Source: Candidatus Poribacteria bacterium (GTDB lineage: Bacteria; Poribacteria; WGA-4E; WGA-3G). From it: 64,000 nucleotides of DNA. The stretch covers positions 124,001-188,000 of the forward strand of contig JAPOZO010000063.1 in NCBI GenBank assembly GCA_026706025.1, given 5' to 3'. Made by a program: the position numbers and the translations under genes. Shown here piece after piece: positions 2,215 to 12,720 of the stretch (position 1 is its first letter; every line of letters begins with the position of its first letter). The notes under the pieces are model-generated. The model ran no database searches, was not told where the DNA came from, and worked only from the letters and a program-made list of their open reading frames with translations.

Positions 2215-2318
2215 ATCTAATTCTTTCACCGAAAAATCTTGCGCAACGAAACGAAAAATACATACCTTCTTTTATATAAGCCAAAGATATCCATATTGAA
2301 CGGATGAAAGCGGAGATC

Positions 2319-3299
2319 ATGATGCGATATACCAAACTTGAAACGAACCATTTCTTTGGCGAAATCATCGGCAAAACCGAAAAAATGCAGCACGTATTCA
2401 CCCAGATTCAAACAGCGGCAGCAGCGGATATTAGCGTCCTGATTCAAGGCGAAACCGGGACCGGCAAAGAACTGATCGCAAAATTGATACACGATAGTAG
2501 TCGTGGGAAAGAAGGACCCTTCGTTGCCATCAATTGTGCTGCAATACCAACCGAATTGATTGAAGGTGAGTTGTTTGGCAATGAACCCGGGGCTTTCACC
2601 GGCGCAATCGCGCGGCGGATCGGATACTTTGAACAAGCGGACACCGGGACACTTTTTCTTGATGAAATTGGGGATATGCCACTCATTTTGCAAGCGAAGC
2701 TGCTGCGTGTCCTACAAGAACGAGAATTTCAAAGGCTCGGTGGCACAAGCACCATCGCCATTGACATCCGGGTTCTGGCTGCTACGAATCAGGGTTTAGA
2801 AGATGCTATCAAAGAAGGATATTTCCGTGAGGATTTGTACCATCGCCTCGCGGCATTCCCTATCACGGTTCCGTCTCTGAGAGATCGGCGCGAAGATATT
2901 CCTATCTTGGCAGATCACTTCCTGAAAAAATATGCCGCAGCCGCCGAAAAACCCATTCGCGACATTTCTACTGATGCCTTACAAATGTTGATGCAGCATG
3001 ACTTTCCCGGTAACGTGCGCGAACTGGAAAACACCATTGAGAGGGCAGTTTTATATGAGACAACGGACCTACTGCAACCCCAAAGCCTCCTTTTACATCA
3101 GACGCAAGAGCGTTCACAATCCGCTGCAAGCAGCCCGACGGGTGCCACTACTATTCTTCCGCTTGACGAAGTTGAACGAAGAGCCATCGTCCACGCACTC
3201 AAAGTGACGGACAATAATGTCCCTGCTGCAGCACAGGCGTTGGGCATCGGCAGATCCACGCTTTATCGGAAATTGAAGGAATATAACCTGCCAGAGTAA
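2319..3299 (+). CDS. Sigma-54-dependent transcriptional activator without receiver domain (cassette copy 1)
   Basis: This is an NtrC-family enhancer-binding protein reduced to AAA+ plus a Fis-type HTH. Seen: Walker A GETGTGKEL, the sigma-54 contact loop GAFTGA, Walker B LFLDEIGD, arginine-finger region FREDLYHRL, and a C-terminal HTH (VPAAAQALGIGRSTLYRKL). Only about 20 residues precede the AAA+ domain, so no phosphorylation or ligand domain is present, as in PspF; its control must lie elsewhere. I chose ATG 2319 over 2304 because it aligns with the start of the paralogue at 6993 and has a CGGAG site upstream. Dyad operators, a sigma-54 promoter and a small-RNA-like unit follow directly. The gene is a recent duplicate of 6993-7958 and is almost identical to it. 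Confidence 0.93.
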   Translation: MMRYTKLETNHFFGEIIGKTEKMQHVFTQIQTAAAADISVLIQGETGTGKELIAKLIHDSSRGKEGPFVAINCAAIPTELIEGELFGNEPGAFTGAIARRIGYFEQADTGTLFLDEIGDMPLILQAKLLRVLQEREFQRLGGTSTIAIDIRVLAATNQGLEDAIKEGYFREDLYHRLAAFPITVPSLRDRREDIPILADHFLKKYAAAAEKPIRDISTDALQMLMQHDFPGNVRELENTIERAVLYETTDLLQPQSLLLHQTQERSQSAASSPTGATTILPLDEVERRAIVHALKVTDNNVPAAAQALGIGRSTLYRKLKEYNLPE

Positions 3300-3302
3300 A
3301 AT

Positions 3303-3341
3303 GTTGTCTCAATATGGGACAGTATCCCATATTGAGACAAC
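3303..3341. promoter_or_regulatory. Paired dyad sites, likely activator-binding enhancer (copy 1)
   Basis: Two perfect 17-bp arms, GTTGTCTCAATATGGGA and its inverse, are separated by 5 bases. Each arm is itself a near-dyad of the form TGTCTCA-N3-TGGGACA. The site starts three bases after the activator stop codon and lies about 180-220 bp upstream of the sigma-54 promoter, the usual place for an enhancer. It could also fold as an RNA hairpin, but it has no T-tract. Confidence 0.65.
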
Positions 3342-3393
3342 ACGCCGGAACCCGTGTTATCAAAGGCTTGGTCCCCGATATGCCTCCCAAACT

Positions 3394-3410
3394 TGTCTCA
3401 TTTTGGGACA
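3394..3410. promoter_or_regulatory. Third TGTCTCA-N3-TGGGACA dyad (copy 1)
   Basis: TGTCTCATTTTGGGACA repeats the dyad of the sites at 3303-3341 with a different 3-base centre. It sits about 110 bp upstream of the sigma-54 promoter. Repetition of the dyad with a variable spacer is what operator sites show, and a chance hairpin would not. Confidence 0.6.
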
Positions 3411-3521: not shown

Positions 3522-3537
3522 TTGGCACGGTTTTTGC
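3522..3537 (+). promoter_or_regulatory. Sigma-54 promoter (-24/-12), copy 1
   Basis: TTGGCACGGTTTTTGC matches the consensus TGGCACG-N4-TTGC, with GG and GC exactly 10 bases apart. The predicted start is near 3549. It is the natural target of the activator encoded just upstream. Confidence 0.85.
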
Positions 3538-3548
3538 TTAAGTAGTGA

Positions 3549-3661
3549 GGTGTAAGCCAAATCCCTTAGATGTTGGTTGCGTCTTACACGAAGTATCGCG
3601 GGATTTTGGCGTTGCATCGCAGACGGCTCCAACAAGCGTGGCCCTTTGCGATTCGACTTTT
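3549..3661 (+). ncRNA. Predicted sigma-54-driven small RNA (copy 1)
   Basis: The unit starts at the predicted sigma-54 transcription start and has a 5' hairpin (GTGTAAG 3550-3556 with CTTACAC 3583-3589). It ends in a GC-rich hairpin (TCGCA/TGCGA around 3617-3651) followed by CTTTT. The terminator is weaker than in copy 2 because of base changes. No convincing ORF with a ribosome site lies in it. The function is unknown; transcription is inferred from the promoter only. Confidence 0.5.
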
Positions 3662-6992: not shown

Positions 6993-7958
6993 ATGGCATT
7001 ACGAACCGAACTTGAGACGAACCATTCTTTTGGCAAAATCATCGGCAAAACCGAAAAAATGCAGCACGTATTCACCCAGATTCAAACGGCGGCAGCAGGA
7101 GCTATTAGCGTCCTGATTCAAGGCGAAACCGGGACCGGGAAAGAATTGATCGCAAAATCAATACACGATAACAGTCCTCGGAAAGAAGGACCCTTCGTTG
7201 CCATCAATTGTGCTGCAATACCAACCGAATTGATTGAAGGTGAGTTGTTTGGCAATGAACCCGGGGCTTTCACCGGCGCAATCGCGTGGCGGATCGGATA
7301 CTTTGAACAAGCGGACACTGGGACACTTTTTCTTGATGAAATTGGGGATATGCCACTCATTTTGCAAGTGAAGTTGCTGCGCGTCCTACAAGAACGGGAA
7401 TTTCAGAGACTTGGTGGTACAAGAACCATCTCCATTGACATCCGGGTTCTGGCTGCTACGAATCGGGATTTAGAGGATACTATCAGAGATGGATATTTCC
7501 GTGAGGATTTGTACCATCGCCTCGCGGCATTCCCTATCGCGGTTCCGCCTCTAAGAGATCGGCGCGAAGATATTCCTATCTTGGCACAGCACTTCGTAAA
7601 AAAATATGCCGCAGCTGCCGAAAAACCCATTCGCGACATTTCTGCTAATGCCTTACAAATGTTGATGCAGCATGACTTTCCCGGTAACGTGCGCGAACTG
7701 GAAAACACCATTGAGAGGGCAGTTTTATATGAGACAACGGACCTACTGCAACCCCAAAGCCTCCTTTTACATCAGACGCAGGAGCGTTCACAATCCGCTG
7801 CAAGCAGCCCGACGGGTGACACTACTATTCTTCCGCTTGACGAAATCGTCCACGCACTCAAAGTGACGGACAATAATGTCCCCGCTGCAGCACAGGCGTT
7901 GGGCATCGGCAGATCCACACTTTATCGGAAATTGAAGGAATATAACCTGCCACAGTAA
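6993..7958 (+). CDS. Sigma-54-dependent transcriptional activator without receiver domain (cassette copy 2)
   Basis: 321 residues, a near-identical paralogue of 2319-3299. All AAA+ motifs are kept: GETGTGKEL, GAFTGA, LFLDEIGD and FREDLYHRL. The C-terminal Fis-type HTH is unchanged, so both copies should read the same DNA sites. A 15-bp deletion relative to copy 1 removes VERRA just before the HTH (LPLDE then IVHALK), which may shorten the linker helix. ATG 6993 has AAGGAG just upstream. Differences are scattered substitutions, consistent with a duplication followed by drift under selection. The dyad sites and sigma-54 promoter follow as in copy 1. Confidence 0.93.
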   Translation: MALRTELETNHSFGKIIGKTEKMQHVFTQIQTAAAGAISVLIQGETGTGKELIAKSIHDNSPRKEGPFVAINCAAIPTELIEGELFGNEPGAFTGAIAWRIGYFEQADTGTLFLDEIGDMPLILQVKLLRVLQEREFQRLGGTRTISIDIRVLAATNRDLEDTIRDGYFREDLYHRLAAFPIAVPPLRDRREDIPILAQHFVKKYAAAAEKPIRDISANALQMLMQHDFPGNVRELENTIERAVLYETTDLLQPQSLLLHQTQERSQSAASSPTGDTTILPLDEIVHALKVTDNNVPAAAQALGIGRSTLYRKLKEYNLPQ

Positions 7959-7961
7959 AAT

Positions 7962-8000
7962 GTTGTCTCAATATGGGACAGTATCCCATATTGAGACAAC
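7962..8000. promoter_or_regulatory. Paired dyad sites, likely activator-binding enhancer (copy 2)
   Basis: The same 17-bp arms (GTTGTCTCAATATGGGA and its inverse) and 5-base centre as at 3303-3341, with no substitution, although the flanks have diverged. It begins directly after the activator stop codon. Confidence 0.65.
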
Positions 8001-8052
8001 ACGTCGGAACCCGTGTTATCAAAGGCTTGGTCCCCGATATGCCTCCCAAACT

Positions 8053-8069
8053 TGTCTCATTTTGGGATA
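8053..8069. promoter_or_regulatory. Third dyad site, one base decayed (copy 2)
   Basis: TGTCTCATTTTGGGATA differs from the copy 1 site only in the last half-site (GGGATA instead of GGGACA). It may bind more weakly. Confidence 0.5.
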
Positions 8070-8181: not shown

Positions 8182-8197
8182 TTGGCACGGTTCTTGC
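8182..8197 (+). promoter_or_regulatory. Sigma-54 promoter (-24/-12), copy 2
   Basis: TTGGCACGGTTCTTGC, with GG and GC 10 bases apart. The one change from copy 1 falls in the non-critical spacer. Predicted start near 8209. Confidence 0.85.
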
Positions 8198-8208
8198 TTA
8201 AGTTATTA

Positions 8209-8326
8209 GTGAAGTGTAAGCCAAATCCTTAGATATTAGTTGTGTCTTACACAAGGTATTGAGGCATTTTGGTGTTGCATCGCAGACTGTTCCAACAGAC
8301 GTGGTCTCTCGCGATGCGACTTTTTT
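8209..8326 (+). ncRNA. Predicted sigma-54-driven small RNA with terminator (copy 2)
   Basis: A 5' hairpin (GTGTAAG 8214-8220 with CTTACAC 8246-8252) opens the unit. A single-stranded middle follows. The end is a strong terminator: GCATCGCAGAC (8277-8287) pairs with GTCT and GCGATGC (8304-8317), then TTTTTT at 8321-8326. The length of about 118 nt and the lack of a credible ORF fit a small regulatory RNA. A separate sigma-70 promoter starts four bases after the T-run. The arrangement (activator gene, sigma-54 promoter, short terminated RNA) resembles luxO-qrr by organisation only. Confidence 0.6.
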
Positions 8327-8329
8327 CGT

Positions 8330-8358
8330 TTGACAATAACGCTGGAACGTGCTATTCT
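8330..8358 (+). promoter_or_regulatory. Sigma-70 promoter of the structured leader, copy 2
   Basis: TTGACA, 17-bp spacer, TATTCT; same boxes as at 3666-3694. Confidence 0.8.
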
Positions 8359-8397
8359 TAGGCATGTTTCCTACTGTTGTCATAAATATTTTTGTAA

Positions 8398-8602
8398 ATG
8401 GCAGCCTCCAAAAGTTTTAGAGGTGCGTCACCGGTGCGCCACCACCAAGCGATGCGGCACTGCCATAATCGGGCTATGACAGTGCTAACTTAATTGTAGC
8501 ACAAAACATCCATGTCTTGGCAACTTTTAAGTTAGCACCTTATACAGAATACAGAGGATTGCCACAGAACGCAAAATACCTTCTATCCGTATCAGGCAAT
8601 CC
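8398..8602 (+). ncRNA. Structured leader RNA, copy B (candidate riboswitch or cis-regulatory RNA)
   Basis: The closing stem pairs TGGCA (8399-8403) with TTGCCA (8539-8544). P2 is a GGTGCG/GCGCC-type hairpin near 8422-8443. P3 pairs GCACTG..CATA with TATG..CAGTGC (8457-8484). P4 pairs GCTAACTTAA with TTAAGTTAGC perfectly, although its sequence differs wholly from copies A and C. The 3' strand GGATTGCC (8536-8543) is also perfectly complementary to GGCAATCC (8595-8602), which lies 8 bases before the AGGAG of the next gene: two mutually exclusive pairings, as expected of a switch. Confidence 0.65.
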
Positions 8603-8623: not shown

Positions 8624-8974
8624 ATAAAAAAGTCTTTGTCTCAAATCATTGCCATTGCCTGCATCCTCACTATAGGGTTCATCGGGCTCTTTTCACAAGT
8701 GAAAAGCACAGAGGCTAACCCCAGCCATAGATCGCAAACGCATCAACTCGTTACTTGTTTAAAAAAAGAGGTACTGGGGGGTTTGCCTTTTTATAACATT
8801 TGTGACAGTTGGACAGAGTCCTTAGATCCTGTAGATGTTTACCCCGATCCACACGAAATCGATGCCCATGGCAGGCACGTTCACGGACCTCACGGTTTTA
8901 AGAAAAATCAACATGTCTACGACAATGTTACCATGACGGTGACTGGTTGTAGTGATTGCGATGAGGATGATTAA
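8624..8974 (+). CDS. Small secreted His/Asp-rich protein with apparent ATA start, cassette cargo 2a
   Basis: A signal peptide of the form KKSLSQIIAIACILTIGFIG is complete only if translation starts at ATA 8624, which lies 8 bases after a good AGGAG. The first conventional start is TTG 8636, which has no ribosome site at a proper distance and would lose the KKS charges. Either a rare AUA start is used or the ATG has mutated. The mature protein (about 90 residues) has a Cys pair (TCLKK, NICDS), a His/Asp cluster (DPHEIDAHGRHVHGPHGF) and an acidic CSDCDEDD end, suggesting metal binding. It sits directly behind leader copy B. No family recognised. Confidence 0.65.
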   Translation: MKKSLSQIIAIACILTIGFIGLFSQVKSTEANPSHRSQTHQLVTCLKKEVLGGLPFYNICDSWTESLDPVDVYPDPHEIDAHGRHVHGPHGFKKNQHVYDNVTMTVTGCSDCDEDD

Positions 8975-9031
8975 GTCGCCTGGTGGATGTTTTTCTCCAA
9001 AACATCCACACAGTCCAATAGGAGCCGTAAC

Positions 9032-9682
9032 ATGAGAAAACTTATGATAGGGGCTATCCTCTCTGTCACCTTTGCTTGTGGATGTTTTTTCTACGCGAAG
9101 TGGGATACACAAAGAGTTGCCGACAGCGTGCCCGAATCACCCATTGTAGAACAACAAACTGTTGACGCACATCCACATGAGCATCCACATGAGACCCCCG
9201 TACCGGAAACCCCGCCCGCAAAAACCAGCGTGTTTGTACCTAAAACTATTATCGTAGAAAATTCGGTTTCCACACCCCCAAAGCCTGAAGATAGCACAAC
9301 GCAAGTAGACGCGGCGGAACAGACCGAGGATGTGAAAGAAAACGGTGCAGCGTGGCAAACCGATGATGCACACGAACATAAAACCACCCGAAGTCCATTT
9401 GCCCGAGAACTTCCAGATATCAGTGAAATGGATCCAGATGAACTGGCCGATATGCTACTTGTCGGGCTACTAAAACGTTTTGGTGACATCCCCGAGGTTC
9501 ACACATTTATGGAATTAGAGCGAAAGAGGCTCAAGAACCAGCCGTGGTCCTTGGATGAACGCATTGATTTTACGCGAGCTCAGTATCATCTGTGGCCAGA
9601 TCCAAGAACCAAGGAAACCCTGGAGATTTTCTTGGAGAAAAGAGCCGCCGAGTATCCAAGAGGCACTAAAATCGTGAGGTGA
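9032..9682 (+). CDS. Membrane-anchored extracytoplasmic protein with FGDIPEV motif, cassette cargo 2b
   Basis: 216 residues. ATG 9032 has AGGAG 7 bases upstream; the frame is open to 8987 but without a ribosome site. One N-terminal hydrophobic segment (LMIGAILSVTFACGCFF) acts as anchor or uncleaved signal. A disordered Pro/Glu/His linker (DAHPHEHPHETPVPETPP) leads to a C-terminal helical domain, LLKRFGDIPEVHTFMELERK. This domain is shared with the next gene (KKFGDIPEVRTYMRLQQK), so the two are paralogous. Function unknown; the shared domain plus anchor suggests proteins that act together at the envelope. Confidence 0.75.
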   Translation: MRKLMIGAILSVTFACGCFFYAKWDTQRVADSVPESPIVEQQTVDAHPHEHPHETPVPETPPAKTSVFVPKTIIVENSVSTPPKPEDSTTQVDAAEQTEDVKENGAAWQTDDAHEHKTTRSPFARELPDISEMDPDELADMLLVGLLKRFGDIPEVHTFMELERKRLKNQPWSLDERIDFTRAQYHLWPDPRTKETLEIFLEKRAAEYPRGTKIVR

Positions 9683-9687
9683 ACACA

Positions 9688-10311
9688 ATGAAAACTTTGA
9701 ACGCTTTACTCGTTTGTTTTATGGTCGTAACTGTGCTATCGGGTTGCAGCGCGAGGCACGCCAACGCGCCCTTCCCCAACACACCAACGGCTCACGATCA
9801 ACAGGATCCCCCAGAGCCCTTCGTACTCGTGAACCCAATGCGGGATGATCCAGACAATCCCAGTCCACACAATCCGCTGATTAAGAAGTTCGGGGATATT
9901 CCGGAAGTCCGCACGTATATGCGGCTGCAGCAAAAATTCTACACGGGGACCGGAATGACCATTGATGAGGCAATAGAACTCTACACTGCAGAAGCCCATC
10001 TCTACCCCTCAGATGCCACAAAAGCAAAATTAAAAAGGTGGGAAAAGGACAGAGAGCGATACATAAAAGAGGGGATACCATTAGGTGAAACCCCTGTATT
10101 GAGGTACGCCGGGAGCACTTCACATTTTTATCACCGAGGCCCCAGTGGCTACTACAACGTCAGAACGCTGCCAGATGGCACGCGAATCATAAATGATTGG
10201 AGCCTCCCCGGAGGGAAAGCCGTCATCCCAGCAAAAGAAACATCAAAATCAGAAAGTGCTGCTGCCGATGCTCATGATCAAAATTCAGTTTCCACCGAAG
10301 ATGAGGAGTGA
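9688..10311 (+). CDS. Lipoprotein with FGDIPEV motif, cassette cargo 2c
   Basis: 207 residues from ATG 9688, preceded by GAGGTG at six bases; an upstream in-frame GTG (9679) overlaps the previous stop and is less likely. Lipobox VLSGC predicts lipid anchoring after a short signal peptide. A Pro/Asp-rich linker is followed by the helical domain KKFGDIPEVRTYMRLQQK seen in the previous protein, then a region ending in YNVRTLPDGTRIINDWSLP and an acidic Ser/Ala tail. It is co-transcribed with its neighbours and precedes the STT3-like gene by 12 bp. No family recognised. Confidence 0.75.
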   Translation: MKTLNALLVCFMVVTVLSGCSARHANAPFPNTPTAHDQQDPPEPFVLVNPMRDDPDNPSPHNPLIKKFGDIPEVRTYMRLQQKFYTGTGMTIDEAIELYTAEAHLYPSDATKAKLKRWEKDRERYIKEGIPLGETPVLRYAGSTSHFYHRGPSGYYNVRTLPDGTRIINDWSLPGGKAVIPAKETSKSESAAADAHDQNSVSTEDEE

Positions 10312-10323
10312 TCGCTCGCGATA

Positions 10324-12720
10324 ATGCTCAACCGCTCAATGCTACTCAAATCGGTTCTCCTCGGTGGTTTTCTCTGTGTTGTCTTCTGGATTCGTGTTCA
10401 GAGTGTCGGCGCAATACCAGAAGGGCATTTCACAGGCGTTGACGCTTATCTCTACTATTTTCAGGCACAACAGATCTCGGATCAGGGGACATTACCCGCC
10501 CGCGATATGCACCGGTGGCTGCCCCTCGGTAGGGATAACGAGCAACTCCTCAACCTCTACAGTTATACCCTTGCATACACTCACAAAACTGTGGCGTGGC
10601 TATACCCTTCTGTCACACTTTATGATGTTACCGTCTACATGCCTGTGGTCTGCTTTTGTATCGGGATCGGCGCGCTCTGTCTCTATCTCACTTGCTCCTT
10701 CGGGCTGCTCACTGCGAGTCTCGTCGGTGTGCTTTTGGCAACGCTCCCGGGGGCCATCAATAGAAGCACTGCTGGCTTCGGCGACCGAGATGCCTACTGT
10801 CTGATGCTCGGTCTCCTTGCCGTTGTGACCTATCTTGTCTCTTTCCAAGCAGGAACACCCCGCAAACGGCTGATTTGGACGATTGTGAGTGGCTTTCTTG
10901 TCTTTCTGGGCGGTATGAGTTGGGAAGGTTTCGGTGTCTTCCTGAGTGTGATTATGGTTGTGGAGCTGTGGCGATTCCTCTCTTCCGAAAGCGAAAACAA
11001 CTTCGGCCTCTATCTGCTGTGGGTGTGCTGCTTTGTTCCAACACTCTATCTTGCCTCACCGGGCTATCGGAACGGCTACGGTTTTGCCGAACACCTCTTT
11101 GCGTTTGTGCTTGTCCCACCCGTTGTGCTTTTAGGCATACGCGCCCTTCGGTACCTGTTGCTGTCAAAAGTAGAAAAACTCCGCCCGCATGCCCGCACCC
11201 TTGCGCTCGGAGTGATGGTGGCAACCGTGTGCCTTGCAATCGGGTATGTTTTGATACAACGAAACACCTTCGCAGAAACGACCGTGCCGTTGAGTCAAAC
11301 CCCCTTGATGCAAAGCATTGGTGAACTCGTACACACAGATTCAAACTATTGGAGAATGCTCTACGGATATATCTTTGTATTAGGCATCATGGGACTCATG
11401 ACGACAGCCATGCACCAGTGGAAAAACTATGGTGCCCACCTGATCCTGCCGCTTACGCTTTTTACATTAACCACCTTTTTTAGAGAATACCCTGATAGCT
11501 GGTGCGGGACACAGAATACCAATATCCTCTTTTTCATTGCTATCGCTGCAACTGTGATGACGATCATGTTTATGGCTTGGCGGCGTGACTTCCGTCCGAA
11601 AAATGAACTTGCTTCTGTAGCCGCCATTGCATGGTTTCTGATTTGGACAGCCCTCTCGCGTGATGCAGAACGATATTCCATCTTTACCAGCCCTGTCCTC
11701 GCTTTCTTTACCGCGGAACTCATACAATTCTGTAGCGCGAAACTCTGTAACGTGAAACTGATCCAAAAACTCAGCGGACGGATACCACAGCGGGTCCTGA
11801 AAACAAGCTTGGCACTCGCAATGCTTGCAGTTCTTATATGGATCCCTTCTCCATTCGGATACGCCCAGAAAATCCGGCATGCGACACATGTGCGCAGAAG
11901 CATGCCGATAAACAGCACCGTTGCTGAAACTTTTCAGTGGATGAAAGCAGAACTCTCACACTCGGCTGTCGTCGCTACGGACTGGATACACGGTAGCCAA
12001 CTCAACGTCCTTGGCGGTGTCAAAACGATTACGGACCAGGACACTTTCATACAGCATTGGATCCATCTTTATTACCGATACCTCTTCTGTGGACAATCTG
12101 AAAAAGAATTCCTTCAATTCCTAAAAAGCCACGGGGCAACCCACTTGATGTTAACTGAAGTCGACATCGTTGCGGATGCACTCACCTATTCTGTTATTGG
12201 AAGTCCATCCGAACACGACAAGCACTTTGAAATCATTGTACTCCGAGACCCAATATACGAAAAAGGAAATATCTTTCTATTTCCTGAAAAAGCAACACCC
12301 TTTTTCGGGAACATCCAGATTGATATGCATCCAGAAAACAACACAGCAACCACCGCTATACTTGTCCGCAAAAAAGGGATAGCGACGACTCTCCCTTACG
12401 TCGCTTTTGAGAATAAAAAACGCACCACCTCCGAAAATCAAGACGGGTCAAAAACAGGAGGCATCCTCCTCTATTTTGATGAGTCTCAGAAGTTCCAAAA
12501 AGGCTATTATGTCCCGCCCATCGCATGGGAGAACGTCGCGATCCGCCTGTTCCTACGAGGCATCCCAAGTGACGCGTTTAAGCTTGTTTACGAAACTCAA
12601 AAAACTGGCGGAACGCCTGTCAAAGTTTGGGAAATACACTACCCTCCCGACATCCAACCGGATCTAAAATACCTCAAAACCGGTTTCTCTGAAATAGACG
12701 AGGATTTACAACTGCAATAA
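10324..12720 (+). CDS. STT3/PglB-like oligosaccharyltransferase
   Basis: 798 residues: about 13 hydrophobic segments, then a soluble C-terminal domain from about residue 530. Family features: the first acidic loop HFTGVDAYLYYFQAQQ, and INRSTAGFGDRDAYCLML, which matches the second acidic motif (R-S-x-x-G-x-x-D). The segment VVATDWIHGSQLNVLGG lies where the WWDYG acceptor-sensing motif belongs but is strongly degenerate. STT3-type enzymes transfer a lipid-linked glycan to Asn of secreted proteins, facing outside the cytoplasm. It lies in one operon with three small secreted proteins, which may be substrates (inference), and 2 bp before a CDP-alcohol phosphotransferase fragment. Bacterial STT3 outside Epsilonproteobacteria is uncommon but known. 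Confidence 0.75.
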   Translation: MLNRSMLLKSVLLGGFLCVVFWIRVQSVGAIPEGHFTGVDAYLYYFQAQQISDQGTLPARDMHRWLPLGRDNEQLLNLYSYTLAYTHKTVAWLYPSVTLYDVTVYMPVVCFCIGIGALCLYLTCSFGLLTASLVGVLLATLPGAINRSTAGFGDRDAYCLMLGLLAVVTYLVSFQAGTPRKRLIWTIVSGFLVFLGGMSWEGFGVFLSVIMVVELWRFLSSESENNFGLYLLWVCCFVPTLYLASPGYRNGYGFAEHLFAFVLVPPVVLLGIRALRYLLLSKVEKLRPHARTLALGVMVATVCLAIGYVLIQRNTFAETTVPLSQTPLMQSIGELVHTDSNYWRMLYGYIFVLGIMGLMTTAMHQWKNYGAHLILPLTLFTLTTFFREYPDSWCGTQNTNILFFIAIAATVMTIMFMAWRRDFRPKNELASVAAIAWFLIWTALSRDAERYSIFTSPVLAFFTAELIQFCSAKLCNVKLIQKLSGRIPQRVLKTSLALAMLAVLIWIPSPFGYAQKIRHATHVRRSMPINSTVAETFQWMKAELSHSAVVATDWIHGSQLNVLGGVKTITDQDTFIQHWIHLYYRYLFCGQSEKEFLQFLKSHGATHLMLTEVDIVADALTYSVIGSPSEHDKHFEIIVLRDPIYEKGNIFLFPEKATPFFGNIQIDMHPENNTATTAILVRKKGIATTLPYVAFENKKRTTSENQDGSKTGGILLYFDESQKFQKGYYVPPIAWENVAIRLFLRGIPSDAFKLVYETQKTGGTPVKVWEIHYPPDIQPDLKYLKTGFSEIDEDLQLQ

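Follow-up and report, generated by a model that had tools for sequence, protein, structure and literature searches.

A predicted sigma-54-driven, terminated transcript beside its activator in Candidatus Poribacteria: the probable end of a switch cassette recombined into a dispersed leader

A sigma-54 promoter that lies beside the gene of its putative activator and leads, without an intervening gene, to a terminator raises the question of what the resulting short RNA would do, and an earlier note had likened this arrangement to luxO-qrr of Vibrio. The locus is the second of two similar units (copies 1 and 2) in the window, i.e., the whole 64,000-nt stretch of DNA that was analysed. The promoter of copy 2 (8182-8197, forward strand, TTGGCACGGTTCTTGC), located correctly in the earlier note and described there as near-perfect, is in fact a perfect -24/-12 element, and it lies beyond chance expectation: its core, TGGCACGN4TTGC, occurs twice in the 64-kb window compared with 0.04 occurrences expected, and two occurrences were found in 1 of 100 shuffles. 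With C8197 taken as position -12, transcription is predicted to start at G8209, and with the end of the six-T run at T8326 the predicted RNA is 118 nt long, as had been estimated. The promoter of copy 1 lies at 3522-3537 (forward strand), with a predicted start at 3549. Within 8209-8326 we saw no reading frame that has a recognisable ribosome site, consistent with the earlier description of this interval as gene-free, and the two mechanical ORFs over the copy 2 element (8240-8479, forward strand, and 8198-8383, reverse strand) were taken as chance. A conserved peptide (MKCKPNP...) read from the leader was considered and rejected, its start codon lying upstream of the predicted transcription start in several loci, its frame being broken in copy 2 and in the related locus L019, and no ribosome site being seen. 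The genome encodes one sigma-54 (RpoN). Overall, conservation gives good support to a predicted short transcript that is sigma-54-driven, intrinsically terminated and encoded beside its activator.

The terminator of copy 2 (8274-8326, forward strand), homologous to that of a dispersed leader termed element B, consists of a hairpin at 8274-8320 followed by T8321-8326, which bears out the six-T terminator described before; that of copy 1 (3611-3661, forward strand) has only TTTT 3' of its stem and was rightly called weaker. Across 16 fused sequences (cassette joined to element B), 91% of the cells of the terminator stem are paired, and for 4 of its 10 outer pairs one or more sequences show a compensatory change of both bases, so that a G+C-rich covarying stem is followed by a T run, as in intrinsic terminators. 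Weak tails (TTTTGG, TTTTCTG) are seen in several of the fused copies. T-run length showed no clear difference between fused and plain copies (P = 0.19), and in a second measure (P = 0.001) the adjacent T of the -35 element is a confounder. Upstream of the terminator lies hairpin A (8220-8273 in copy 2, forward strand), the 5' arm of which comes from the cassette leader and the 3' arm of which is GG(n)ATTTTGG. In the same 16 sequences 92% of its cells are paired with no compensatory changes, and its support is therefore one of consistency rather than covariation. The fold of copy 2 (124 nt) gave z = -2.8, with 2 of 200 shuffles equally good, and that of copy 1 gave z = -1.6. The first hairpin proposed previously, GTGTAAG/CTTACAC, is indeed kept in copy 1 and is 95% paired, but the competing pairing GCCAAAUCC/GGnAUUUUGGC is preferred both in the consensus and in the individual folds of the two copies, and the proposed hairpin is incompatible with hairpin A unless both form a pseudoknot.

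Considering the position of the RNA beside its activator, the domains of the latter bear directly on the comparison with LuxO. The ORFs of copy 2 (6993-7958) and copy 1 (2304-3299), both on the forward strand, encode proteins with the same Pfam domains, namely a sigma-54 AAA+ domain, an AAA lid and a Fis-type helix-turn-helix (HTH), which start at residue ~16-21; no sensor or receiver domain was detected by Pfam. The earlier note was thus correct that the activator has no receiver domain and that its control must differ. LuxO possesses an N-terminal receiver domain and a linker (PMC10162802), both of which are absent here, and the LuxO equivalog score of the activator, 277 bits, is far below the cut-off of 800. 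The architecture resembles that of sensor-less enhancer-binding proteins of the PspF kind, which likewise comprise only AAA+ and HTH domains; the PspF model TIGR02974 aligns over the AAA+ part, whereas its score (263.5 bits) does not reach the cut-off (443.55). It was also observed that five residues of the first HTH helix (VERRA) are absent from the copy 2 activator and present in copy 1, which lacks this deletion, and in the L009 and L010 paralogues; the VERRA-less protein scores 45.9 bits for HTH_8 instead of 56.7.

Between activator and promoter, each copy carries enhancer-like palindromes at fixed positions. In copy 2, a distal pair (7961-8001, TGTTGTCTCAATATGGGACAGTATCCCATATTGAGACAACA) occupies a position equivalent to that in nearly all sister loci, and a proximal palindrome is found at 8053-8069 (TGTCTCATTTTGGGATA), ~128 nt before the promoter; in copy 1, the corresponding sites lie at 3302-3342 and 3394-3410 (TGTCTCATTTTGGGACA). 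The typical unit thus runs from the activator gene through a double palindrome after its stop codon and a single palindrome ~128 nt upstream of the promoter to the promoter itself, a variable gap and a conserved box, GTGTAAGCCAAATCC. The palindrome arms (7961-8069, 3302-3410 and sister loci) co-vary with the recognition helix of the activator in three classes, matched by eye and without statistics: GIGRS with TGTCTCA, GIGRT mainly with TGTTTCA, and GIDR with TGTTGCA, TGTTGTA or TGTCGCA. This suggests dedicated activator-enhancer pairs, which, if right, would be natural material for reading the DNA code of sigma-54 activators. The enhancer type is identical in copies 1 and 2, and either activator could therefore serve both.

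The box is located at 8214-8228 in copy 2 and at 3550-3564 in copy 1 (both on the forward strand), its distance from the promoter being variable. Between loci with and without a terminator the identity of the box is 0.86, whereas the spacer that separates enhancer and promoter reaches 0.77 and the gap 0.32; some of this conservation could stem from a recent spread of the cassette, but the box is still better conserved than the spacer beside it. In this genome the exact box occurs only at the four complete units, of which two lie in the window, one on contig C34 and one on contig C63 at 375 kb. Two decayed cassettes were also observed (C30 and C73; L005/L011 and L006/L012); these retain traces of promoter and enhancers but lack the leader box, and no intact activator was seen in them. 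Across the genus, 20 of 38 genomes contain DNA similar to all or part of the unit. Comparison of 31 sigma-54 promoters from this and sister genomes, which are related rather than independent loci, revealed a terminator in 14 and none in 17. Downstream of many terminator-less promoters, a ribosome site and a gene follow within about 70-250 nt, and at many of these loci the product of the nearby gene has a signal-like N-terminus. Since more than half of the loci are terminator-less and a gene is often close, a role in cis, driving or gating an operon, would be what the cassettes have in common.

At 49 places that lack a sigma-54 promoter, the 3' half of the RNA (hairpin plus terminator) stands by itself, and the interval 8244-8330 likewise matches places of this kind. 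A covariance model of this shared part detected it in 20 of the 38 genomes of the genus and in 26 of the 73 of the order, distributed over 2 of 11 genera. Element B in its plain form, a dispersed leader, opens with a short ORF, which carries a ribosome site and a C5-C18 tract; hairpins and the same terminator come next, then a sigma-70 promoter and finally an operon whose proteins have signal-like N-termini. In two relatives (L043 and L044), at what is apparently the orthologous locus, a plain element B occupies the place of the copy 2 cassette. The terminator and promoter region of copy 2 is 94% and 90% identical to these two B elements over 150-165 nt and scores higher against them than against any fused copy. 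The copy 2 RNA region is thus a chimera. When copy 2, L009 and L125 were compared position by position, each was cassette-like at first and came to resemble the local B element within or close to the terminator hairpin, and as the partners differ each time, the chimera has arisen on three or more occasions, homologous recombination in the hairpin being the simplest explanation.

Junctions in or near a homologous hairpin would also arise if the cassette had simply landed before an old terminator by homologous recombination, leaving a functionless short RNA as a by-product. The weak tails of several fused copies and the two further cassettes (L005 and L006) that have decayed in this genome, with no intact activator seen, would agree with such an origin, whereas the joining of cassette-specific 5' and 3' arms in the well-paired hairpin A and the compensatory changes kept in the terminator stem of fused copies argue against it, and we regard the by-product explanation as quite improbable.

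We favour, with slightly better than even confidence, the reading that a self-contained sigma-54 switch cassette has recombined into element B, that the feature is the transcribed end of this cassette, and that the RNA most likely acts in cis. The cassette would comprise an enhancer-binding protein without a sensor, the enhancer palindromes that belong to it, a -24/-12 promoter and a short leader, and would have recombined into the dispersed leader B, which ends in a terminator, before operons of secreted proteins (a label taken for the operon proteins from their N-termini, not from a signal-peptide program). Once the activator is active and, as we infer, bound to its enhancers, RNA polymerase would initiate near 8209. 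Most copy 2 transcripts would stop at 8326 to yield a two-hairpin RNA of ~118 nt, which should be the main product because the terminator is intact, while the remainder would read into the operon, itself provided with a sigma-70 promoter just 3' of the terminator. The RNA may thus serve in cis as an attenuated leader or an insulator, and at the terminator-less sister loci sigma-54 transcription would run towards the operon. Counting against this reading, the intact T6 of copy 2 and of four relatives would block sigma-54 expression of the operon. If the favoured reading is right, homologous recombination within a terminator is a way for one kind of promoter switch to invade another.

An alternative is that the RNA acts in trans by pairing with distant mRNAs in a Qrr-like manner, made on demand by the adjacent activator. 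In Vibrio, luxO-qrr combines a sigma-54 promoter that has at least two enhancers upstream with a short non-coding RNA (PMC10162802), to which the sigma-54 promoter, upstream enhancer-like sites and predicted short transcript correspond here. The copy 2 unit has its own sigma-54 promoter and a strong terminator, the unit is present in four copies, the leader box and hairpins are conserved, and Hfq is encoded as well (PF17209, 31.0 bits, low-scoring but above the cut-off of 27). Within the element, Rfam returned no family at threshold and only noise at E values up to 10. Moreover, the leader box is also present in terminator-less loci that lead to a gene, and the terminator half is common to, and exchanged with, the local element B, with which local action fits better. 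A trans-acting RNA is therefore possible but unsupported, and we consider it unlikely. What stands of the luxO-qrr comparison is a predicted terminated sigma-54 RNA beside an activator; the receiver-less, low-scoring activator, the terminator half shared with dispersed B elements and the terminator-less majority of sister cassettes do not fit it. A sigma-54 promoter and a terminator beside an activator gene need not mean a Qrr-like small RNA.

The closer published layout is that of cbrB-crcZ in Pseudomonas, where a sigma-54-dependent RNA gene lies immediately downstream of the activator gene (PMC10562864). The relative order is equal here, with the RNA start predicted at 8209, 3' of the activator end at 7958; the differences are that the RNA is a chimera located before an operon and that the cassette is multicopy. 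CbrB belongs to a two-component pair, in which it is the regulator, and crcZ-type RNA carries repeated AANAANAA as its Crc/Hfq motif, none of which was found in 8209-8326 when the sequence was read by eye.

The leader ORF of plain B elements may add to the picture. In 40 loci with a recognisable tract (e.g., L113, L043 and L096), this ORF ends in a C5-C18/poly-proline tract. All 40 have a tract phase in which the frame stops within 25 nt, and 36 of the 40 have one in which it continues past the terminator; at present tract lengths, 28 frames stop within 25 nt, 6 read past the terminator and 6 end between. Open frames were found in 20 of 22 cases compared with 8.6 in shuffles, although the antisense strand also gave 15 of 22 and the codon-position bias was weak. 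Element B resembles a phase-variable attenuator, a likeness that we offer as a lead. In the Pil1 leader of Streptococcus gallolyticus, a leader ORF with a length-variable repeat precedes a terminator, beyond which lie surface-protein genes, and out-of-frame repeat lengths were shown experimentally to cause terminator read-through (PMC3894217). Element B, as predicted from its sequence, shares the short leader ORF, the length-variable tract and the terminator before an operon, and differs in its poly-C tract, further hairpins and the sigma-70 promoter after the terminator; the window copies differ from Pil1 in lacking a leader ORF. On a tentative and rather doubtful extension of this likeness, poly-C slippage of the ORF against the terminator would form a stochastic switch before secreted-protein operons, and a sigma-54 cassette that recombines, bringing its matched activator and enhancers along, would repeatedly replace the leader ORF while keeping the terminator, converting the switch to activator control, with the 118-nt RNA as the hybrid transcript.

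Directly 3' of the terminator, a sigma-70-type promoter (8330-8358, forward strand) reads TTGACA-17-TATTCT with an extended -10, and the TTGA of the -35 and the TA...T of the -10 are invariant among 25 aligned loci. A covarying inverted repeat (8331-8382, forward strand) spans this promoter, centred on the -10, and has equivalents in other loci. Its fold gave z = -4.9, with z values of -3.6 to -4.9 across five loci, and across loci its matched arms formed 7.0 of 9 pairs compared with 6.1 for mismatched arms, the observed value being reached in 0 of 2000 shuffles. Pairing of the terminator loop with the downstream 5' UTR was also considered (5.17 matched compared with 5.01 mismatched; 41 of 300 shuffles) and rejected, its signal being better explained by this inverted repeat. 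The first operon genes (8636-10311, forward strand) are ORFs for a small protein with a signal-like N-terminus (8636-8974), a membrane-anchored protein (9032-9682) and a lipoprotein-like protein (9688-10311), none of which matched a Pfam family. Further along in the same direction, the large protein encoded by 10324-12720 weakly matches archaeal-type STT3 oligosaccharyl transferase (40 bits compared with a cut-off of 450).
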